64,000 nucleotides of DNA from Methylotuvimicrobium alcaliphilum 20Z (GTDB lineage Bacteria; Pseudomonadota; Gammaproteobacteria; Methylococcales; Methylomonadaceae). The notes beneath the pieces are model-generated. The model was not told the origin of the DNA. It did no database searches and saw only the letters and a program-made list of their open reading frames with translations. Of the stretch, positions 8,860-59,147 are shown piece by piece (the stretch's first letter is position 1; every line of letters begins with the position of its first letter). The stretch covers positions 4,340,001 to 4,404,000 of the forward strand of contig NC_016112.1 in NCBI RefSeq assembly GCF_000968535.2, read 5' to 3'. Both the position numbers and the translations under genes were made by a program.

Positions 8860-9447
8860 TTGAAAATTTGCCGGTCATGTTGCCGCTTTCACCGTAATTG
8901 GCGTAGCAGCTTTTGGGTTCGATACCGGTTCGAATTGTCGATCATCGGTCTTGAGGCATTCATCCCAGTCCGCATCTCATTGCCATTAAGATCACGAAAA
9001 CCCGCGTCATTCCGCCAAGGAGTGGCGGAATCCAGTGCCACGGATGGCAAGCATTGAATACATTCATGTGATATGGATGTCGGCAATCCATGCCGACATG
9101 ACGGCTCCTGATTAGCAAGTTTCTTCAGCTAAAGCCCAAAGATCAGCATAACCCTTAGCAAGACGGGGTTCGTAAGCCATGTGCGTCAAGCTAAAAACGG
9201 CCTCCCACATCACGCTCTTTCCCAAGCTCCAGCTTCCTGAGACCGACACAACCTCCGCTCACTCTCAATCAGCCCCGCGACTCGCTCGTTCAATTTTTCT
9301 TGATTGTCGGGAAGCTAGAGCTTCCTGAACAGGTTACCCAAGCTGGAGCTTGGGTAACAGCATATTTTAGTTTTTGCGACTACGACTGGCCCCTGCTTGG
9401 ACACTTGGTTTCGGCAAGCTGAAGCATCTTGCTTATCAGGTGACGGC
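8860..9447. repeat. Gene-free stretch with repeat debris and family E copy
   Basis: Between hugZ and hmuS. The part at 8990-9105 is a degenerate palindromic repeat (CCAAGGAGTGGCGGAATCC and ATGTCGGCAATCCATGCCGACAT). From about 9106 to 9358 lies family E copy 1, with AAGCTCCAGCTTCC-type hairpins; it is the inverted counterpart of 20694-20927. I see no gene. Confidence 0.7.
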
Positions 9448-10437
9448 TTAACTTAATGGCAATGAGTCTGCATGTTCGAAGAGAATCATAGCGATAGTGC
9501 TTCCGGCAGTATCGTAAAGCTCCAAGGTTTTGGCCACAGTATTCCCGGCCGGACGTTCGGAGAGAAGCAGTTCGGCCAACGCGTCTTCCTTCAAATGCAG
9601 GTTGAAACCGTCGTCGAGCACGTTGAACCAGGGGCCGGTGATCATCAGTTTCTCGATCGGGCCCGAATGAACCTGCAGCGCGCCGGCATTGCCTACTAAA
9701 ACGGTCAAACCGGCGCCAACTTCTGACGCTTTTTCCATGAAACGCCGAAACAACGGGGGCGGCAGTCGTTCGGTTTGCAGCGGCTCGGTGCTTTGATAAG
9801 GCACGGCTCCACAGGCGATCAAGCGCTCATGCCATGCCTGTCCTAGCCTATCGTTGCCGGCCACGGCGGCTACCGAATCAATGTTTAGCACCGGAGATTC
9901 GACATATTGCCGTTGGGATTGATCTTCGGAGCGGTAACGTTCGATCAAGGCCCGATAGGCCGGTATACATCTGCTTTCGGTCATATAAATCTTATGCACG
10001 GCAGTACCGTCGCGATCGAAAAATTGCAGACTGTTGCGAGCTCCCTGACGAGTTTGTTCGGTCACGGCGAAAGCAGAATGCCAATGGCGAAAATCCAGAA
10101 ACAGATCGATGTTATCGCCCTGAATCCGTCCGCCGGTATCGGTCAGCCGGATACTTTGGTAAAAACCGGTTTTTTCGTGCACCGCATCATCGTTGCGGGT
10201 CAATGCCATTACCTGGCCTAATGATTCGATTCCACCCAGCAGCCCCTGCCAATCGGCGTCAAGACGAGTCGCATTTTCCCCGCAGCCGGTCGCCAGGAGT
10301 TCGACCTCGCTGACTTCCAAAGCGGAAGCGGCCTCCCTAATCCGCAATTGCGACCTGTTCTCGCGTAGTTCGTCCCAGCGGCGTTTTAACGCCTCGGGAG
10401 AAATCGAGTTCGTTCGACTATCGTTTGCTTGGCACAT
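9448..10437 (-). CDS. hmuS: HmuS/HemS-type haemin-processing protein, 329 aa
   Basis: Cytoplasmic haem-trafficking or haem-degrading factor of the HemS/ChuS family, which takes haem after import. Two tandem ChuX/HemS repeats are visible. The first holds GQVMALTRNDDAVHEKTGFY and HKIYMTES; the second holds GNAGALQVHSGPIEKL followed by GPWFNVLDDGFNLHLKEDAL, near the family consensus. The start is ATG at 10437: AGAGGA lies 6 bases upstream, while the longer frame to 10515 runs back into the preceding gene. Only two bases separate it from the stop of the upstream 92-aa gene, so the two are translationally coupled. Confidence 0.9.
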   Translation of the reverse strand: MCQANDSRTNSISPEALKRRWDELRENRSQLRIREAASALEVSEVELLATGCGENATRLDADWQGLLGGIESLGQVMALTRNDDAVHEKTGFYQSIRLTDTGGRIQGDNIDLFLDFRHWHSAFAVTEQTRQGARNSLQFFDRDGTAVHKIYMTESRCIPAYRALIERYRSEDQSQRQYVESPVLNIDSVAAVAGNDRLGQAWHERLIACGAVPYQSTEPLQTERLPPPLFRRFMEKASEVGAGLTVLVGNAGALQVHSGPIEKLMITGPWFNVLDDGFNLHLKEDALAELLLSERPAGNTVAKTLELYDTAGSTIAMILFEHADSLPLS

Positions 10438-28474: not shown

Positions 28475-28945
28475 TGCTACGTCTGAATAAAGTCGGCAAA
28501 CCGGTCATTATATACTTTGCGCGAAACAATGCCGATGCGCGGTTTTATTTTTGGCGTTATAACGAAATGAATTTTTTCTATACCTTTGTAAGTATTCAGA
28601 CCCCTTTGGCAAATTACCGCAATATTGTCCTCCTCCTTTGAAAAAGGGGGATTTATTTAAACAATCTCCCCTAGCCCTCTTTTTCAAAGAAGGGGGACTG
28701 AATACTTAGTAACGATCATGAAATAACATCGACAACTTCTGGGAGGGGGGTCGGTGGCTCGATTGACAGGTGTCGGCGGCAGGGCAGATTTTTGCTCCTG
28801 CAAAATCTGCATTCATGCCATCCTTGGCAATCAGTCGCCGCCGTCAAGCCTACATGGAAGTATTCACGGCGTCCTGTCAAGCGAGTCACCGAATCGCCGC
28901 AAAGCCTACTACTTGTAGCAGTTATTTTGTGCATATTCCTTACAA
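28475..28945. repeat. Gene-free stretch: family J element and family A copy A4
   Basis: Between 28589 and 28708 lies an element with inverted ends TAAGTATTCAGACCCCTT / AGGGGGACTGAATACTTA, enclosing CCTTTGAAAAAGGGGGA-type hairpins. From 28748 to about 28890 lies a short family A copy (GGTGGCTCGATTGACAGG ... CCTGTCAAGCGAGTCACC). No gene is supported. Confidence 0.7.
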
Positions 28946-29617
28946 TCAATCCCGGGAGAAATAGATGTCCCCGTAATAAGCCTCGGCGCTGCCGCCGGCA
29001 TTATCGGTATCGGTCATCAATGCCACGGCATCAATGTAGCGAATAGGTTCGCCGAATTGCGCTTCCAAATCGCGGAGTACATTACGTTTTTCTTGATACC
29101 AAGTAGCGGTTTGATCGTCAGCCGAACGCAAAGCGATCATCATCGCATTACTACCGGCAAAAGCATTCGGCCAAACCTTGCCTTTCGGCGAATTGCCGGC
29201 CCAAACATAATTGATCGCCCGCGTTCGCCAGAATGCCCAGCCGCCGCTAACCACCACATAGACACGAGCCGCATAATCGTCGCCGGACTTACTTTGCTCG
29301 TCGATCTTTCCCAAACGGTTTTCGATGCGCCATCGCCAATTCAAATAAGGCGTTTTTTGAAGATCGATACGCTGTTCTTTAAATAAACCGGACGCCGCCC
29401 GATCGCTCTTCGCTCTTAATACGCGAACATCATCCAACAACTCGATCGTATAAAGCGTAGTGCCTTTAAACGATTTAGGTTTCCAGCCGGCAAGGCTGCC
29501 GGAGGAGAATTCACCGACCACAAGCCGGCTTGTATCGGCACAAACCGAGCCAAGCCCCGAGAGTGTAGCGATTAACAAGCAACGGATAAAAAACGAACTC
29601 AGAAATGATGAATGCAA
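28946..29617 (-). CDS. DUF3047 family exported protein, 223 aa
   Basis: DUF3047 proteins are periplasmic beta-sandwich proteins of unknown function, common in proteobacteria. Matching features are LVVGEFSSGSLAGWKPKSFKG, the core YLNWRWRIENRL, YAARVYVVVSGG, INYVWAG and VALMTDTDNAGGSAEAYYGDIYFS. A signal peptide is present (ending near VCA). I prefer the TTG start at 29617 because GAGGAA lies 6 bases upstream; an in-frame ATG at 29677 has no ribosome site and would add an odd extension. The stop is followed by repeat A4. Confidence 0.75.
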   Translation of the reverse strand: MHSSFLSSFFIRCLLIATLSGLGSVCADTSRLVVGEFSSGSLAGWKPKSFKGTTLYTIELLDDVRVLRAKSDRAASGLFKEQRIDLQKTPYLNWRWRIENRLGKIDEQSKSGDDYAARVYVVVSGGWAFWRTRAINYVWAGNSPKGKVWPNAFAGSNAMMIALRSADDQTATWYQEKRNVLRDLEAQFGEPIRYIDAVALMTDTDNAGGSAEAYYGDIYFSRD

Positions 29618-30041
29618 AACGTGTTCCTCAAGTAAAAGTATTGATTTCAAACGTATCTCGAAACCAGGCAATGGCAAAACGGAAGAACGTTACAAGTAGG
29701 CGCCAATTTAAGGAAAAACGCGTCATTACGTCAGGAATTAGCGGAATCAAGGACTACGGATGGCTATGCGTATCTTCAGATCCCATCTAATCTGGATATC
29801 GGCAATCCTTAGCGAGATAACGAATAAAGCCGCAAATGCACTATAGAATAGGCATTAAGTTGGCGCTTATGAAAACATTCTACATTGCGAATTCGAAAAA
29901 TATCGTCGTTTTATCAACTTGCCCGTAAGCGTATCTTAATAAGAAAAATCCGTTTCGCTAGAAACAAAACGCAAGTAAAAAAATACTGGCGAATTCCGTC
30001 CGGCATAAGGTACAATGCGCAGCTCTACGACATCCTTAAAT

Positions 30042-30128
30042 GCCTGGGTGGCGAAATTGGTAGACGCAAGGGACTTAAAATCCCTCGGGAGCAATCCCGT
30101 GCCGGTTCGATTCCGGCCTCAGGCACCA
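30042..30128 (+). tRNA. tRNA-Leu (anticodon TAA), with CCA
   Basis: The acceptor stem GCCTGGG pairs with CTCAGGC, with discriminator A at 30125 and encoded CCA at 30126-30128. The anticodon loop CTTAAAA gives TAA (leucine), the variable arm is long (class II), and the T-arm CCGGTTCGATTCCGG is standard. Its 3' part is duplicated at 33066-33122, marking it as an integration site. Confidence 0.95.
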
Positions 30129-30187
30129 ACAAAAACAACGACTTACATAATGACACGTTGTCGCATCTTTTTGAAGGTGTCGACCAA

Positions 30188-30367
30188 GTGTCGACAAAAA
30201 AAGTCAGACCTGAAAAACTCCGCCGAAAATATTGGACCGACCTGTCGCTTGATAACTATATCAGGCTTGAACGTTTGGCTGCTCAAAATGGTACTACCAC
30301 TTATAAAATGGCAAGCGCTATAGTAAGCGCCTATCTTTTGGGGGGTTTGGTTCGGAAGGCCGATTGA
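30188..30367 (+). CDS. Small ribbon-helix-helix-like protein of the element, 59 aa
   Basis: The open frame continues out of the tRNA, but the plausible protein begins at GTG 30188 (GAAGG about 10 bases upstream). Its core RKYWTDLSLDNYIRLERLAAQNGTTTYKMASAIVSAYL resembles the strand-helix-helix of Arc/CopG-type regulators. It could be an excisionase or repressor of the element. The start codon is uncertain and the gene may be spurious. Confidence 0.4.
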   Translation: MSTKKVRPEKLRRKYWTDLSLDNYIRLERLAAQNGTTTYKMASAIVSAYLLGGLVRKAD

Positions 30368-30373
30368 GCTTAT

Positions 30374-30518
30374 GCCCTCTCGCCGTCGCCGTCGGTCGTT
30401 GCTTTTTGGGGGCACAGGCAGGGCGCGCGGTCAAGGGCGCTTAGCGTTCATTTACCCTTGACCGCGCGCCCTGCCTGTGCCCCCCTTAGATAACGTCCGG
30501 CGGCGTTGGCGAGAGGGC
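30374..30518. repeat. Giant hairpin IR1: 30-bp perfect GC-rich stem
   Basis: The 30 bases 30408-30437 (starting GGGGGCACAGGCAGGGC) are exactly inverted at 30455-30484, with a 17-base spacer. Outside these, GCCCTCTCGCC (30374) pairs with GGCGAGAGGGC (30508-30518), so about 145 bp can fold. It lies between convergent small genes of the element. Confidence 0.9.
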
Positions 30519-30570
30519 CATGCTCTTGAGCCCGAGCCCGAGGGAGTGTTGCGCTAGGGATTGGAGAGGA

Positions 30571-30673
30571 AATCAATCATTTTTAAGCGTTACAGCCAGT
30601 TAGTTAAAAACCTTTGGAGCAAAGCGGAAAAGCGTTTTTAGCTTACTGGCTGTTAGCTTAACTATGATTGATT
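30571..30673. repeat. Hairpin IR2 of the integrative element
   Basis: The ends AATCAATCAT (30571-30580) and ATGATTGATT (30664-30673) are exact inverses. Inside, ACAGCCAGTTAGTTAAAAAC (30592-30611) faces GTTTTTAGCTTACTGGCTGT with two mismatches. It lies between IR1 and the integrase gene. Confidence 0.8.
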
Positions 30674-30736
30674 GGATCGGAAAGCCCGTCCCGTAGGGAG
30701 CGCCTAACAAACAACAATGAAAAAAAGCAACAACAA

Positions 30737-31738
30737 TCAAAATATTTTTGCAAAAGGGCTTAACTCCCTCGCCTTTTCTAAATGATCGGGCGATAAGTGC
30801 GCGTAACGCATTGTCATGGTTAGGCTTTGATGCCCTAAAATCTTCTGTAAAGTCAAAATATTGCCACCGTTCATCATAAAATGAGAAGCGAATGAATGCC
30901 TTAGAACGTGCGAACTCTGCCCTTTAGGAAGAATTATTGACGTTCGCTCAATGGCGAACTTAAAAGCCTCAATACAATTACAAAATAAAGCGCTGTCGTC
31001 GTCCAAACCGCTTCCGTGATCGATCAAACGCTTGGTCAAGCCCTCCGGTATAGGAACGCAGCGCGATTTACCGCTTTTGGTGCCGTTAAAGCTTACGGCA
31101 TTATTTCGAATATTACGCTTAGTAATGCCGATGGCTTCAGACCAACGCGCACCAGTAGCAAGGCAAAGGCTAGCAACTAACAGAATGTCGCGGCTGTTGG
31201 ACTTTTCGAGCTCAATGAACAATTCTTTAATTTGCTCGGTCGTCAAATAGCTGAGCTCCTGTTCGTCAATCTTGAATTGGCGAAGCTTAGCGGCCGGATT
31301 TTCCTTATTCCATTGTCCTAGCCGGATCAACTCATTAAAAGCGCTCCTGACATAGGCGATTTCGCGATTAACGCCGTTAGGCGTAATCCCTTCGGCTAAA
31401 CGTGCCGTTCTATACTCGCTAAGCATCTCTGGCGTAACCTGGTGGCCGTAAGGGTCGCCTAGCCTTTCACAGACTAATAAAAGCCTTCCGAACGTGTTTT
31501 TTTCCGCCTTGAGCGATTTCCCGTGATGATCGTGCCAAAACCGCATAAGATCGGAAAGCCGGCGAAAGTCTTTCTTGTCGGGCTCCCAATCCGGGTTCTT
31601 AATGATTTTGGTTTTAACGTGCGCTTCCCATCGTAAAGCCTCGGCTTTCGTCTTAAAGTTTTTGCGAAAGCGTTTGCCGCCTCGTCCTCCTGGTTGAATG
31701 TCTGCCAACCAACCGGACTCTGTTTTTTTGATTGCCAT
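30737..31738 (-). CDS. Tyrosine-family integrase, 333 aa
   Basis: Site-specific recombinase expected to integrate the element into tRNA-Leu. An N-terminal arm-binding-like domain (about residues 1-60, KRFRKNFKTKAEALRWEAHV) is followed by a SAM-like core-binding domain (about 62-160). The catalytic domain has box I ATGARWSEAIGI (Arg), a lysine in NGTKSGKSRCVPIP, box II SHVLRHSFASHF (H-x-x-R), LGHQS and the nucleophile in MRYAHLS. All six catalytic residues appear present. It resembles P2-type phage and island integrases. The gene points toward attL. Confidence 0.92.
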   Translation of the reverse strand: MAIKKTESGWLADIQPGGRGGKRFRKNFKTKAEALRWEAHVKTKIIKNPDWEPDKKDFRRLSDLMRFWHDHHGKSLKAEKNTFGRLLLVCERLGDPYGHQVTPEMLSEYRTARLAEGITPNGVNREIAYVRSAFNELIRLGQWNKENPAAKLRQFKIDEQELSYLTTEQIKELFIELEKSNSRDILLVASLCLATGARWSEAIGITKRNIRNNAVSFNGTKSGKSRCVPIPEGLTKRLIDHGSGLDDDSALFCNCIEAFKFAIERTSIILPKGQSSHVLRHSFASHFMMNGGNILTLQKILGHQSLTMTMRYAHLSPDHLEKARELSPFAKIF

Positions 31739-31753
31739 TTAAGTACCTCACAA

Positions 31754-31888
31754 AAATTCGCGGCGGTCGAGGGTGCGATGCATTGGACGCGCTTTGGAAC
31801 ATCGATAAAGTTCGGGTGAGCGTTAGCGAACAATACCAGTGAGGCGTAATCGAAGCCAGGCGAGCCCCTCGACCGCCGCCGCGAATTT
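31754..31888. repeat. Inverted repeat IR3 upstream of the integrase
   Basis: AAATTCGCGGCGGTCGAGGG (31754-31773) is inverted at 31866-31888, where the right arm carries one extra GCC triplet. The 92-base interior has shorter internal pairs. It starts 16 bases upstream of the integrase start, so it may hold the promoter, an attachment arm site or a structured RNA. Confidence 0.75.
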
Positions 31889-32042
31889 CTTTTAGCTTTT
31901 TCTCTCGTTCTCGGGTCTCGTTTCCTCTTTTTGCTTTTGGGGGTGGGACGCCTCTGTATCACGTCACAATGAAAGTTATAGGACGCTCTGTTAGAGCTTG
32001 TTAAAGCTCTTTTGAGAATCCTATAACCTGACTTGTGACTGT

Positions 32043-32225
32043 TTATTTTTGGCAATCCTTGAGCTTTTCTAGGCTCTCTTTGAGTTGATTGTTTACGACC
32101 TGTAAAAGCCCTGTTAGGTGGCTTGCATCAACGCCTTTAGCGTTTATACAAAGCATTTCGATGCTTGCATACGCATCTAAAAGGGTGTCTAGTTCGTCGC
32201 GTACGTCTAAAAGTGGTTTGCTCAT
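32043..32225 (-). CDS. Small protein of the integrative element, 60 aa
   Basis: An acidic helical protein (MSKPLLDVRDELDTLLDAYASIEML ... LKESLEKLKDCQK). AGGA lies about 9-12 bases before the ATG. The composition suggests two long helices, perhaps a dimeric regulator. I recognise no family. Its start codon is four bases from the phased GTTAAA array, so a protein binding the array could control it. Confidence 0.6.
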   Translation of the reverse strand: MSKPLLDVRDELDTLLDAYASIEMLCINAKGVDASHLTGLLQVVNNQLKESLEKLKDCQK

Positions 32226-32228
32226 GGC

Positions 32229-32274
32229 GTTAAATCCTGTTAAATTATGTTAAAGGTTGTTAAATGTTGTTAAG
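32229..32274. repeat. Iteron-like array: five GTTAAA units at exact 10-bp spacing
   Basis: GTTAA(A/G) begins at 32229, 32239, 32249, 32259 and 32269; four units are GTTAAA and the last is GTTAAG. The period equals about one helical turn, so a protein could bind one face of the DNA. Further GTTAA motifs, some inverted, lie at 32334-32345 and 32385-32390. Confidence 0.85.
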
Positions 32275-32422
32275 GTTTGATGCATAATAGTTTAATCAGC
32301 CGCAATGAGCAAGCATTATTTCTTGTTAAGTTTTAACATGAAATAACAAGAAAAAGGCATGTCTTGTTATCTATTAGCAATTGCTGTTAACAAATAATAA
32401 GTAATAATAAGAATTAACAGGT

Positions 32423-32428
32423 TATAAT
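32423..32428 (+). promoter_or_regulatory. -10 element giving a possible leaderless mRNA
   Basis: A perfect TATAAT ends seven bases before the ATG at 32435, which has no Shine-Dalgarno. If used, transcription would start at or near the A of the start codon. The -35 region is poor, so activation by an array-binding protein is possible. Confidence 0.4.
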
Positions 32429-32434
32429 GGTCGA

Positions 32435-32890
32435 ATGAGAAAACCGGCGAAAAGATTAACTAAGGCGCAATTAAAAGAGCTTAAGGCGGTAATTTTGAGC
32501 CTTAATCCTAACTTGGCACTTGATGCTGTCATAACGCTTTCAAATCAGTTTGAAATGTGGCAAGCCTATCAGCAAAGAAAGTATTTTCTTGTACGTGAAC
32601 CGATAGACTTTATTGAAGAAACGGTATCAATTGATTTTAGCGCCTTGGATGACCGGCAAGGGCAAGATGAAAAAAGCGAGGTTGAATTGGTGAAAGTTAA
32701 CAAACAAGCGGAACCGGAAAAGCAATCCAGGCGAACGCGCGGCAAGGGCAATAAACCGGCGAAAAAAGTAACATCAATTGCTATTGATCCTGATGTCTAT
32801 GCCAAGCTTGAACTAAAGGCTGAGGCTGAGCAACGTTCTATTGGGGCGATAATTCGTCTTGCGATCGGTCAATATCTGGAAAATACGTAA
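32435..32890 (+). CDS. Element protein with C-terminal ribbon-helix-helix domain, 151 aa
   Basis: An N-terminal helical part (RLTKAQLKELKAVILSL, about residues 6-22) leads to an acidic middle, then a lysine/arginine-rich linker (QSRRTRGKGNKPAKK, about 96-111) and a C-terminal RHH-like unit VTSIAIDPDVYAKLELKAEAEQRSIGAIIRLAIGQYLE (about 112-149). Such a protein is likely to bind DNA, plausibly the GTTAAA array just upstream. There is no known family name I can give. Codon use is AT-richer than the chromosomal neighbours, consistent with transfer. Confidence 0.7.
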   Translation: MRKPAKRLTKAQLKELKAVILSLNPNLALDAVITLSNQFEMWQAYQQRKYFLVREPIDFIEETVSIDFSALDDRQGQDEKSEVELVKVNKQAEPEKQSRRTRGKGNKPAKKVTSIAIDPDVYAKLELKAEAEQRSIGAIIRLAIGQYLENT

Positions 32891-33065
32891 TTACAGTAAT
32901 TACGTAATTACGCTTAAACCGATGAAAAAGGGGGAAAAAAACTGTCAACAAAGTGTCAACGTAAACCAGCGAAACACAAGAAAAATAAGCTTAAACCACT
33001 AAAAAAGAGAGTCTAACATTATGAAAAATCAAGAAAATCAAAATATTGAAGAAAATTCCGAGGGT

Positions 33066-33122
33066 CTTAAAATCCCTCGGTGGCAACACCGTGCCGGTTC
33101 GATTCCGGCCCCAGGCACCAAC
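33066..33122. repeat. attR: duplicated 3' end of tRNA-Leu
   Basis: Matches 30074-30130 at 52 of 57 positions, including an unbroken 22-base block spanning the T-arm (CCGTGCCGGTTCGATTCCGG and two more bases). Four of the five differences lie in the variable-arm part. A short open frame across it is not a gene. Confidence 0.85.
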
Positions 33123-33128
33123 GAAAAC

Positions 33129-34478
33129 AACAAGTTACGAAAAATAAGCTTATTAGCAAAAGCTAATAATTCGGGTTTTGTCGCAAATTTGTCGCACTTC
33201 CAAAAAAAACCACTCCCTCTTACCCGCACACGCTGCCGGTTTATTGCTCCCCATTTTTTGGCAGCTTTTTAGCTCCTGGAATTCCAGGAACATTACTGAT
33301 TATTGTCTGATTATCTTGTTTATAGATGGGTAACGATTAACTTGCGTTCCGCCTTGCGTCAAAAGGGGTGGTGTTTCACTACCGCCTTTGTAAACCTCGT
33401 CTTGTTTTAATAAAGTCCTCGTTATGGGGTATTCGTCCTATACCCCATAGGTGTTTACCCATTGTAAAGGGCTGGGGGTCAAAAAAGGGGCAGCTTGAAT
33501 TAATAATCCAACCTGACCCCCCTTTTTTATTTTTGCTAAATTGCCGGCTTCGCTGATTTATGCGATCGGCGGCAACAAGCTCGAACAAATCACCACGCTT
33601 TAACCTAAATTCGGTAGTTTAACTATGAAGCATATGAAGTTAATGAAGTATTTCAAGAAATTACCTAAACATTCTCGCTAACTTTTTTGGTGAGCGAAAG
33701 CTCTATAGCAAGTTGTTGAATTAACTTCTTATTCTTCATGATATTCATGGTGAAATGCTTTTTCTAAGTTTAAGAAATATTCTTGCAAAAGCCCGAAACA
33801 AAGCAGTATTCAATAGGTTGAACGCAGGCCAAATCCAATCGACGCAAACCGCACCAGCAATTCAGCCAGACGCGATGTATACCTTTCGTACTTCAAATTT
33901 CGGCAGCGCCTTAGGAGGCGCCGGGGTGCTACTCCCTTTATACTCAAAAAATGGTTAACTTTATGAAGGTATGGGGTGTGTATATCGAGGACCGCCGTGA
34001 ACCCATCCATGGAGGCTTGACGGCAGCGATCGAACGCCAGGGATGGCGTGGATACGGATTTTGCATGGAGCAAAAATCTGCCCTGCTGCCGACATCCTCG
34101 CTAGCCACACCCCATACTTTTTATTCTTAGACAGTTTTTCGATCAGAATCGATATTCACGCCATCCATGGCGCCCGCAAGGGCTTTGCCTGCATGGGGCT
34201 GGCATAGAACCTACAGGGATGTATTCCTTCAGCACCTAAATTCCATAGCCTATTGGCTATGATTAATTGTTTTAGATAGTTTAGGTGCTGAGTTAACGGC
34301 GTCCATTGACGGACATCCCGGTGCCGAAATTTGATCTACGATGGGTATGGCGCCACTATGGACACCGCAATGGATTGCGGGAACCCGTCTACATTTTGGT
34401 TTTCGATAACTCCCAAAATTCGTAAGGTTTTTTGTATAATGCCTGCCACTAGACCGACGGACAACCCAGGAGATATCA
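33129..34478. repeat. Gene-free 1.3 kb of nested repeats
   Basis: At about 33480-33537 lies a degenerate family D hairpin (AAAAAAGGGGCAGCTTGAATT facing CAACCTGACCCCCCTTTTTT). From 33878 to 34348 lies family B copy B5 interrupted by a C' element (33929-34146) and carrying a diverged G hairpin (34230-34291). The stretch 33540-33870 shows nothing I can name. Confidence 0.7.
33878..34348. repeat. Family B copy B5 with nested C' and G
   Basis: Family B begins normally (TATACCTTTCGTACTTC) and breaks at GCCGGGGTG near 33928, where C' begins. It resumes after 34146 with GCCTGCATGGGGCTGGCATAG, is interrupted by the G hairpin CAGCACCTAAATT ... TTTAGGTGCTG, and closes with GATCTACGATGGGTAT. Confidence 0.75.
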
Positions 34479-35648
34479 ATGACCGCGACTGAAACCTTTC
34501 TCGAAGCCGTTCGAGACATAACGCCGATCATTCGAAAACACTCCGATGCGGCCGAGCGTGAACGGAAAATGGCCGAACCTGTTGCGCGAGCGATGCAACA
34601 GGCCGGTTTGTACCGGATGTGGCGGCCGAAGGTGTTCGGCGGATTCGAACTCGACCCGGTCTCCGGTTTCCGCATCATAGAGGCCGTTTCGCGCATCGAC
34701 AGCGCGGCAGGCTGGAATCTGCAAATCGCCGCCGCGCACGATCTGTTCGCGCCGTGGTTCGGCGATCAGGCCGCGCAGGAAATCTTCGGACGCGATGCGA
34801 TTCCGGTCGGCGCCTTCAATCCGGCGCGCAAGGCCGTTCCGGTCGACGGCGGTTATCGGATTTCGGGGCGCACGTCGTTCGTCAGCGGCGCGCATCATGC
34901 GACAGTGTTTCTCGGCTTCGCGAACGTGCACGACGGCGATACGCTGCGCGTCGATTCAAACGGCATGCCCGATACGCGTCTGATCGCGGTTCCGGCCAAC
35001 AAGGTCAAGATCATCGACAACTGGAACACAATGGGCATGCGCGGCAGCGGCAGTCATGACGTCGAAGTCGACGACGTCGTCATTCCCGAACACTGGGCCG
35101 CGCCGTGGGGACCGTTGCGCAATCCGGGCAGCGCTTATACCGGTCCGTTGTACCGGTTGACGATTTGGCCCGCGATCGCGGCATTGGTCGCGCCGGCGCT
35201 CGGCATTACACACGCGGCAATCGACGAGGCGATCGGTTTGATCGGTAACAAGATACCGGCCTACGGTTCGACGACCTTGATCAAGCAAAGCCTCGTGCAA
35301 TCGCAACTGGCGCGGGCCCAAGCGAAATTCGACGCGAGTCGCTCCTACTTTTTCGGCACATTCGACGAAGCCTGGAAGGAAGCGCTTGCGGGCAAACCGA
35401 TTACGCTACAGATGAAGGCCAAGTTGCAGCTCGCATCGACTCATGCCGTGCTCGAATGCGCGCAGGCGGTCGACTTGATTTACGAGATCGCCGGCGCTTC
35501 CGGAATCCGCGAGGACTACGGTTTCGCACGGCATTTCCGGGACATTCATGTCATCACTCAACACGGTTTTCTAAACGCGAGCAAGCTCGAATCGGTCGGG
35601 CGAATCTTGCTCGGACTCGAGTCGGAATGGCCGTTTTTCAAATTTTGA
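34479..35648 (+). CDS. Acyl-CoA-dehydrogenase-fold flavin monooxygenase, 389 aa
   Basis: The fold is that of acyl-CoA dehydrogenases and two-component flavin monooxygenases (DszC/HpaB-like). An N-terminal helical domain (~1-115) with AAERERKMAEPVARAMQQAGLYRMWRPKVFGG leads to the beta domain (~120-225), containing GYRISGRTSFVSGAHHATVF and WNTMGMRGSGSHDVEVDDVVIP, and a C-terminal helical bundle. The family's catalytic glutamate is not evident, which favours a monooxygenase over a dehydrogenase. AGGAG lies 10 bases before the ATG. A broken methyltransferase gene follows after 49 bp, so the two may once have made a small modification operon. Confidence 0.78.
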   Translation: MTATETFLEAVRDITPIIRKHSDAAERERKMAEPVARAMQQAGLYRMWRPKVFGGFELDPVSGFRIIEAVSRIDSAAGWNLQIAAAHDLFAPWFGDQAAQEIFGRDAIPVGAFNPARKAVPVDGGYRISGRTSFVSGAHHATVFLGFANVHDGDTLRVDSNGMPDTRLIAVPANKVKIIDNWNTMGMRGSGSHDVEVDDVVIPEHWAAPWGPLRNPGSAYTGPLYRLTIWPAIAALVAPALGITHAAIDEAIGLIGNKIPAYGSTTLIKQSLVQSQLARAQAKFDASRSYFFGTFDEAWKEALAGKPITLQMKAKLQLASTHAVLECAQAVDLIYEIAGASGIREDYGFARHFRDIHVITQHGFLNASKLESVGRILLGLESEWPFFKF

Positions 35649-58380: not shown

Positions 58381-59147
58381 ATAGGGGTAGGGAAGATTTC
58401 TCTCCCCTCCCTCCGAACCGTGCATGCGGTTCTCCCGCACACGGCTCTCCAGTCGGTGGTTTCCTCATCGGGACAAGCTGGTGAGCAATGGTGTTATTAA
58501 TTGGTGAACCCCATTACTCCGCGTTACCACGTCAGCCCGCAAACTCGGTTTGATTCGTTACCTTCGGCTCCCTTCAACGGCTGAGCCTCTTTAAGCCTTT
58601 TACCTGAGGTTGGCTTAATGGCCGTGACACCGAACGCTACCTCGTTTCCACCTTCCTACCCTTCTTTCCTATGGCCGGTTTTGCTAGCCGGCTTTTACCA
58701 TCTTTTCCCCTCTCGGTTTAGGCTCGTGTTTGTTTTCTCTGTTTCCGCCTGGTTTCCCAGCGGTGCCACACTGTCCTCGCCTTGCCTTGAGCTTCCTCGA
58801 CTTACGGTAATATAAGGGTTCTGACTCCTGCCACGGTCACCTCCGTAACAGGTCTCCCCAGTTTCTTCACAATACCTTCTGAACATTCCACTCCCAACCA
58901 CAAGGTAGGCCCATTTATCGTTTTATCTGCCACAACAACGTAAATGATGGTTTTCAGGCTTCGTCGACTCCCAGGGGACTCGCCGCCTTACCCCGCCGAA
59001 TCGGATTCGCTTTACTGCGGACTGCTCTTTTGCCTCCAGTTGCTCTCCACCCCACCTCGCGGTGACGCAGTTACTTTCAGCTACGACGTTATGGCTTACG
59101 CCGACAGGGACTTACACCCTGCTGATTTTGTGCCCTCCTGGGCGCAC
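58381..59147 (-). mobile_element. ORF-less group II intron, about 767 bp
   Basis: On the minus strand the segment opens with GTGCGCCCAGGAGGGCAC and GTGTAAGTCCCTGTC, a group II 5' end. It ends with a domain V hairpin, then a domain VI-like hairpin with GGGGAGAGAAATCTTCCC and the terminal CCCCTAT. No reverse-transcriptase frame exists inside; the longest frames are under 70 codons. It interrupts a family H palindrome, whose two halves flank it. The exact 3' boundary is uncertain by a few bases. Splicing in trans would need a maturase from elsewhere. Confidence 0.8.
58415..58447 (-). ncRNA. Group II intron domain V
   Basis: The 33-base minus-strand hairpin begins GAGCCGTGTGCGGGAGAAC and ends GCACGGTTC. 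It carries the AGC catalytic triad near its 5' side and the GAAA-like loop position as GAGAA. This is the most conserved intron domain. Confidence 0.85.

Follow-up and report, generated by a model that had tools for sequence, protein, structure and literature searches.

A 3-kb integrative element in tRNA-Leu of Methylotuvimicrobium alcaliphilum 20Z as a probable satellite of Pf-like inoviruses

Introduction

How might a mobile element of only about 3 kb, lodged in a tRNA gene and seemingly without cargo, be copied and carried to new cells? The question is raised by a locus in Methylotuvimicrobium alcaliphilum 20Z (contig NC_016112.1), contained in the 64,000-nucleotide stretch from position 4,340,001 to position 4,404,000 that was analysed here as a whole and is termed the window; coordinates without a locus name are window positions. 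An original prediction, made from the letters of this stretch, had described a very small integrative element in tRNA-Leu with no recognisable cargo, and had proposed either a satellite using another element's proteins or a minimal self-sufficient element of a new type. The evidence presented below supports the first proposal and points to the Pf-like inoviruses as the likely helper class: in our judgement the element is very probably an integrative, Rep-less satellite of these phages, “a natural phagemid with its own integrase”. It is an insertion, has a replication region and a small gene at its left end in common with inovirus prophages, carries no recognisable helper genes, and recurs as a unit in other genera. 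The second proposal has lost ground, no replication or transfer gene having been recognised.

The insertion at tRNA-Leu(TAA)

The element lies between its target gene, tRNA-Leu(TAA) (30042..30128, plus strand; ARAGORN and Rfam RF00005), and a second copy of the 3' half of that gene, and measures 2,992 bp. The two direct repeats, attL (30069..30146, plus strand) and attR (33061..33138, plus strand), extend over 78 nt with 9/78 mismatches; over the shorter span of the original prediction, which had reported agreement at 52 of 57 positions, the count proved exact (5 mismatches in 57). The whole element is present once in the 4.8-Mb genome, and its GC content is 44.4% vs 48.8 and 49.3% in the flanks.

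Five other genomes of the genus, one of them only 79% complete, were compared at this site. All five retain the left flank; in G010 and G078 it continues without a break up to the tRNA end, and in the others it is in pieces. Neither the integrase (1e-40) nor p151 (1e-3), the larger of two small proteins of the element, has a match in any of them. Counting only alignments longer than 150 nt, the sequence right of attR (window position 34207 on, 86.6%) begins in G037 about 620 bp behind the same tRNA; because right-hand synteny in G010 and G078 returns only after about 10-11 kb, G037 provides the one clean empty site. From the same-genus flanks without integrase or p151, together with the G037 site, it therefore follows that the element is an insertion, and the comparison with relatives lacking the insert that had been proposed at the outset is thereby answered. 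Right of attR, positions 33590-34350 are occupied by multi-copy repeats: a query of 28900-34500 gave 86-131 matches per genome in six genus genomes, and the matches listed fall mostly there.

A replication region in common with Pf-like inoviruses

Pf-like inovirus prophages from the same bacterial family have an intergenic region that is matched by window positions 30368-30736, between the left-end gene and the integrase gene. When up to two mismatches are tolerated, a 19-base motif taken from the second hairpin block of these positions is present in 15 of 201 family genomes (the reversed motif, as a control, in 5/201), and in seven of the 15 it stands 6-9 kb from a relative of the integrase, in regions that are inovirus prophages. 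Five of the 15 motif genomes (G003, G065, G119, G167 and G169) have no inovirus profile match and no copy of the structured element R1 (see below) in the fetched stretch, and look like chance. The prophage at L089 presents, in a row, the left-end gene, hairpins, the motif, a protein resembling single-stranded DNA-binding protein (SSB), Phage_Coat_B (E 3e-13), Zot (E 2e-15), an initiator and an integrase; the SSB label is presumptive, being given by position, and the corresponding PHROG carries no function. In the same locus the minor coat region is broken by a transposase that we take to be IS256-like (L089:5825-7078), the inovirus prophage being complete apart from this.

L089 and the window served as seeds for profiles with which 54 sequences were searched, including 43 fetched family regions chosen for the motif or the integrase. 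Zot and SSB occur together in 15 of the 43, and of these 15 prophage loci 14 have the initiator and 14 the left-end gene. The initiator (L112 copy, tblastn) matched 27 phage records, including Pf1 orf430 and a Pf 'replication initiation protein' (31% in the matches listed, 15 of the 27), and has no Pfam or NCBIfam name. At the nucleotide level, blastn of the element against phages and plasmids gave only integrase pieces among the matches listed (20 of 45 phage records) and one plasmid match that is unannotated, and blastn of the hairpin region gave nothing in phages.

A tie to the inoviruses is also provided by R1 (30553..30714, plus strand), a structured replication element of inovirus type and putative origin, within which two nested pairs of inverted repeats lie (30571-30673). 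A covariance model was made from nine prophage copies, with no satellite among them, aligned and folded; 34 of its 49 pairs have double-sided changes. In the 64-kb window the model finds a single match, the full-length R1 (152.8 bits, E 4.8e-33), and it scores 155.8 bits in L027, a related element introduced below. Seventeen of the 201 family genomes have a match, 14 of them at 100 bits or more: 11 with Zot (nine of which supplied training sequences), two satellites (G000, the own genome, and G191), and one remnant (G014). The remaining three are weak (G152, with Zot, and G147 and G100, without it), and 369 genomes of the class added to the own genome only two weak matches (54 and 36 bits). 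The weak matches in G147, G100, G498 and G384 (35-54 bits) were set aside, no profile match being found in the loci looked at, and sub-threshold Rfam matches (long-hairpin microRNA models and Flavo-1) were rejected as artefact. When 34 matches (25 distinct rows) were fitted to the model, 94.7% of cells paired and 37 of 49 pairs covaried, vs 73.5% and 24.2 in shuffles, and 0 of 500 shuffles reached 37/49 double-sided changes.

In a virus collection, 24 stretches from 23 contigs carry the R1 pattern: 22 have Zot, 23 SSB and 23 the left-end gene. The two without Zot are L166, a piece of the contig of L181, and L177, which has SSB, part of the initiator and an integrase. Since the collection holds predicted viruses only, it gives no measure of how exclusive R1 is. 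An exact-match search of the viral contigs with a 20-mer from the R1 motif was empty; the prophage copies mostly have A where the window and L027 have T. Just ahead of R1, a linker box, CTTGAGCCCGAGCCCGAGGGAGTG (30525..30548, plus strand), is by eye a near-match to boxes of the inovirus regions.

Two statements of the original prediction are modified by these findings. The content is not wholly unrecognisable, since the left-end gene and the hairpins are inovirus-type parts. Whether the same genes also stand inside a larger prophage, which the prediction had raised as a point against a separate element, has a divided answer: it is so for the left-end gene, for the hairpin region and for the family of the integrase, and not for p60 (the smaller of the two proteins) and p151, which were found neither in the 15 prophage loci nor in the 24 viral stretches.

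Related elements in other genera

Among the 201 family genomes, the 333-residue tyrosine integrase (30737..31738, minus strand; PF00589, PF24624) has two clear neighbours, at 66% and 65%, in G162 (L026/L121) and G191 (L027/L122). Both belong to complete relatives of the element from two other genera, with repeat spacings of 3,349 and 2,823 bp. L027 is located at tRNA-Leu(TAA); the repeats of L026 are identical (48/48) and read by eye as a tRNA-Phe end, although ARAGORN finds no tRNA at the repeat, which sits at a contig end. The order of parts is common to all three: left-end gene, large hairpin, integrase (minus strand), a CTGTATCACGT box, p60 (minus strand), AT-rich repeats, and p151 (plus strand). 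Identities to the window are 41 and 34% for p151, 40 and 40% for the left-end gene, and 31 and 37% for p60. TGTC(A/G)AC repeats flank attP on both sides in all three, the left copy lying inside the left-end gene; in the window these are the arm-type repeats TGTCGACCAAGTGTCGACA (30178..30196), a putative integrase arm site, and TGTCAACAAAGTGTCAACG (32943..32961). The co-occurrence suggested for checking by the original prediction has thus been found, p60 and p151 recurring with a related integrase and a large hairpin as a 2.8-3.4 kb unit in two other genera.

p151 appears largely confined to this unit. Its profile, run on 311 genomes of the order, retrieved the three elements and three generic ribbon-helix-helix (RHH) matches (L057-L059), which were rejected as relatives; as a single query p151 gave no match but its own in 151 family genomes, and none among viral contigs. 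Distant relatives of p60 occur at L188:1477-1752 and L189:1420-1701 (G089 and G004); these weak matches were dismissed as satellites because every other satellite profile is missing there. A fourth copy of the element is a remnant, L149 (G014, 9146-9865), comprising the left-end gene with the arm repeat, a hairpin and R1 (114.9 bits) followed by unrelated sequence; its left border reads by eye as a tRNA end, and ARAGORN reports none. In L026, positions 2503-2910 retain hairpin 1 and the linker with no R1 match; the origin of this element may be of a different type, as must be the case in prophages L108 and L110.

The remnant, and the parts common to prophages, bear on a different explanation, namely that the element is a decayed inovirus prophage from which a deletion removed the coat, Zot and initiator genes and in which the left-end gene, the replication region and the integrase remained. 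L149 proves that remnants exist, and the left-end gene, replication region and integrase family are what such decay would leave behind. However, a unit with p60 and p151, which the prophage loci and viral stretches lack, recurs in three genera and at two kinds of tRNA; and in a tree of 47 integrases (rows shorter than 280 aa, duplicates and identical rows dropped) the three satellite integrases form one clade on one side of a branch with 100/100 support. Orientation differs as well: the satellite integrase gene runs opposite to R1, or in L026 opposite to the left-end gene, whereas in 13 of the 14 prophage loci with an integrase (L101 being the exception) it runs the same way as the other genes. 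Decay is accordingly judged very unlikely, and a satellite with a lineage of its own is the preferred reading.

Gene content and self-sufficiency

The integrase, p60, p151 and the large inverted repeats of the original prediction were all located; its possible third small gene is the left-end gene, with a stop at 30367. No Zot, SSB or initiator profile match was obtained among the open reading frames (ORFs) of the element, coat genes not being sought by profile, and a Pfam scan of five ORFs found no relaxase, no oriT search being made. Because no phage structural or replication gene was recognised, the element probably must borrow the machinery of a helper phage; this dependence is argued from anatomy.

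The gene on which an alternative could be built is p151 (32435..32890, plus strand), with a helical N-terminus, a low-confidence linker and a C-terminal RHH domain (RHH_1, PF01402, E 4.7e-8). It adjoins an AT-rich divergent region with TGTTAA repeats (32226..32434; similar repeats in L027), and its structure model is poor (pLDDT 62), the N-terminal part being without a name. A self-sufficient element, in which p151 together with the repeats would constitute its own initiator, would draw on this adjacency and on the unnamed N-terminal part. Against it, p151 is recognised only as an RHH domain, typical of repressors, and is unmatched in 50,697 phage and 72,556 plasmid records. Of the explanations weighed here we find this one the hardest to credit, and extremely unlikely; as part of a helper-dependent satellite, p151 would more plausibly be a regulator.

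Evidence against a satellite of inoviruses, and the link to conjugative plasmids

Several observations weigh against the satellite reading. A helper is hard to find where the element resides: Zot has no match over the cut-off in the own genome (one lies below it, 17.6 vs 20.3 bits), and at E 1e-6 there is none in the six genus genomes or in G191, with 38 of the 201 family genomes having Zot. The initiator has no match in the genus, in a search run without a positive control. Satellite and inovirus are found together in one of the three genomes with complete satellites, G162, which is a metagenome bin with 7% contamination. The association of parts is also imperfect: R1 has no match in L026 or in four of the 15 prophages (L101, L104, L108 and L110) and is weak in L114 (57 bits), and two Zot loci fetched later, L152 and L153, have no left-end gene, SSB or initiator match, L152 showing R1 at a contig end. 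The mismatches between attL and attR (9/78) indicate that the insertion is not fresh. Finally, the hairpin-1 tip was found by blastn (E 0.1) in seven plasmids of Vibrio, Aliivibrio and Cysteiniphilum, and in one of them R1 is weakly matched twice (32 and 21 bits; L191:6250-6404), so these structures are not confined to phages.

Hairpin 1 (30374..30518, tip 30432-30460) has 64-nt arms of 84% identity. When six prophage hairpin blocks were combined into a profile, it matched weakly, and in the window only, at 30376-30464 (E 9e-5 in 274 kb searched); L027 and L149 escaped it, as did three inoviruses, L108, L110 and L112. A tip pattern, written after the sequences had been seen and run on 1.40 Mb of fetched loci with six loci carrying the window's own element left out, is present in the window and its copy L081, in L026 and its copies, and in the inoviruses L108, L110, L112 (with copy L141) and L178; L112 is the prophage of G162, the bin that also carries L026. 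In three plasmids inspected (L190:4001-4035, L191:4001-4029 and L192:4001-4034), the tip lies inside a long hairpin in an unannotated gap; two are typed MOBF/MPF_F and one is non-mobilizable, and none of the three stretches matches a satellite or inovirus profile, left-end gene included. The plasmid tip region has relatives in 502 plasmid records, of which 247 are typed conjugative and 172 mobilizable.

Plasmid F offers a functional parallel. The F hairpin upstream of ssb has TTCATTTACCCT in common with the hairpin-1 tip (one 17-nt match, E 0.07). Frpo is reported to be a leading-region hairpin used by RNA polymerase on single-stranded DNA, and Frpo2, a single-strand promoter, is placed upstream of F ssb (PMC9849209). 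The likeness to Frpo is one of tip resemblance only; in the F stretch the R1 model scores 18.1 bits at best, which is not convincing. An earlier idea, that hairpin 1 is a packaging signal and the plasmid matches chance, was dropped because the matches cover the hairpin tip. For the same reason hairpin 1 is now read as single-strand-promoter-like: it would serve a single-stranded stage, most likely the priming of second-strand synthesis, and it may belong to an undescribed type of single-strand element common to phages and conjugative plasmids.

This reading of hairpin 1 raises the conjugation alternative, a mobilizable element that rides conjugative plasmids and whose hairpins serve single-stranded entry. 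The tip in common with conjugative-plasmid hairpins, and the abundance of conjugative and mobilizable plasmids among the 502 records, speak for it. The five scanned ORFs, however, lack a relaxase, R1 scores at inovirus level and far from the 32 and 21 bits of the plasmid, and the left-end gene matches inoviruses and nothing in the three plasmid stretches. We therefore hold a conjugative route to be very unlikely, and retain the Pf-like inoviruses as presumed helpers.

A left-end gene split at attP

The left-end gene (30158..30367, plus strand) is identified by its profile match to inovirus genes; its family is unnamed by Pfam, PHROG and NCBIfam. The protein appears RHH-like by eye, and its model (pLDDT 75) has two helices. 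A PDB fold search gave no match at E 0.001, and the list from E 1.2 onwards holds many RHH proteins (ParG, FitA, CopASO, CopG, PutA and MatP) along with unrelated ones, so that the predicted fold is weakly RHH-like.

The start of this gene is unusual. Past attL, the frame in the window offers no ATG until codon 77 of 96, and the only early starts in the integrated state are TTG (30158) and GTG (30188); the frame stays open, however, across attP to an ATG at 33021, which with the 5' coding part that follows (33021..33060, plus strand) would be joined to the left-end gene in the circle. The L026 frame has no ATG, GTG or TTG in 99 codons. Both the window and L026 have a single ATG, in the matching frame, at the opposite end of the element, where it lies 46-47 nt upstream of the core of the repeat. 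In L027, a leader ORF coming from that opposite end stops at an ATGA that overlaps the first ATG of the left-end gene, and in L149 the ATG comes after the tRNA-like end. From these start-codon layouts it follows that the left-end gene begins at attP in all four. In the three complete elements, translation of the gene in the circle would come from the p151 side; integration would silence it, and tRNA read-through could also express it.

A proposed life cycle

On the satellite reading, we infer the following steps beyond the common replication region. When a helper inovirus enters the cell or is induced, the integrase operon would excise the element as a circle of some 3.0 kb. A divergent promoter, probably under the control of p151, would drive p60 and the integrase gene leftwards and p151 rightwards; in the circle, transcription from p151 would pass attP, cover the left-end gene and reach hairpin 1 and R1, so that p151 and the left-end gene would be expressed in one line. 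The co-infecting inovirus would provide the nicking initiator, SSB, coat proteins and the pI/Zot ATPase, its initiator would start rolling-circle copying in the common replication region, and its proteins would export the strand as a short, phagemid-like filament. Once the strand has reached a new cell, synthesis of its complement may be primed from hairpin 1, serving as a single-strand promoter, and the integrase would insert the circle at the 3' end of tRNA-Leu, restoring the tRNA gene.

A fuller version of this proposal stands, in our estimate, at about even chances. It describes a satellite family with an integrase and no initiator of its own that uses its att site as a switch. Only excision would give the left-end gene, of inovirus type and presumed to act in the replication state, its start codon (window and L026) or its overlapping leader ORF (L027), and integration would turn it off by splitting it at attP; hairpin 1 would be a kind of single-strand promoter common to phages, satellites and conjugative plasmids.

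Other features of the window

Two further inverted repeats lie right of the integrase gene: one upstream of it (31747..31895, found by repeat search) and one between it and p60 (31963..32039), beside the CTGTATCACGT box (31953-31965) present in all three satellites. p60 itself (32043..32225, minus strand) is a small protein whose conservation in the three elements is seen by profile and alignment. A scan for promoters and terminators showed no excess over shuffles (4 vs 4.6 and 5 vs 5.2). Elsewhere in the window, positions 58381-58449 (minus strand) match the catalytic domain of a group II intron (Rfam RF00029, 58.4 bits).

Significance

If the satellite reading is true, a 3-kb integrative form that also needs its helper's initiator would be close to the smallest that a mobile satellite can be, and the attP-split gene would act as a compact excision sensor. 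The reading accounts for an element with 'no cargo', and tools that seek capsid or replication genes would overlook such satellites; the R1 model, or the left-end gene and integrase with no Zot nearby, offers a way to find more of them. It also makes testable which inovirus sequences suffice for replication and export, and the common hairpin would link the single-stranded entry of phages with that of conjugative plasmids.

Comparison with known systems

The open-access literature, screened by title and the opening of the abstract and with preprints outside the scope of the search, yielded no earlier description of an integrase-bearing, Rep-less inovirus satellite, which is no proof of absence. 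Satellites of tailed phages such as P4, PICI and PICMI have terminase- or capsid-redirecting genes, AlpA, a primase and cos or pac sites; domain-library scans of the element gave no match to terminase/capsid-redirecting genes, AlpA or primase, no cos or pac search being made. It differs from integrative and conjugative or integrative and mobilizable elements in having no relaxase among the five ORFs scanned. From autonomous Inoviridae it is separated, by profile search, in lacking the pI/Zot ATPase and the initiator, with coat genes outside that search. The Pf-like inoviruses (Pf1 group) are tied to it through the initiator family of the presumed helpers and through the left-end gene, replication region and integrase family that prophages of the bacterial family have in common with it; they differ in the Zot, SSB and initiator matches that it lacks. 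Schmid et al. 2024, to judge by its title, reportedly describes an autonomous plasmid as an inovirus satellite; this too would be non-phage DNA tied to an inovirus, but the plasmid would replicate itself and the element is chromosomal.

Two filamentous-phage satellites provide the remaining comparisons. RS1 of CTX phage is, in the excerpts cited, a satellite organised around the replication region of its helper (PMC4439123, PMC11389934); it is described as differing little from the replicating RS2 region, as replicating itself, as carrying the antirepressor RstC and as exploiting Xer (PMC4439123). The element is likewise built around an inovirus-type replication region. The TLC satellite phage of Vibrio cholerae, as far as the cited excerpt describes it, lacks morphogenesis genes, employs the proteins of a different filamentous phage, and has an autonomous replication module and host Xer integration (PMC4246890). 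The element resembles it in being, on the satellite reading, a filamentous-phage satellite with no recognised morphogenesis genes, coat genes being outside the profile search; it differs in that TLC replicates itself and relies on Xer, whereas the element has no recognised replication gene, its own integrase and a tRNA-gene site. Relative to both RS1 and TLC, then, the element has no initiator profile match among its ORFs and uses a tyrosine integrase and tRNA-Leu instead of XerCD at dif. We would file it as a variant of the filamentous-phage satellites, set apart from RS1 and TLC as these have been described.

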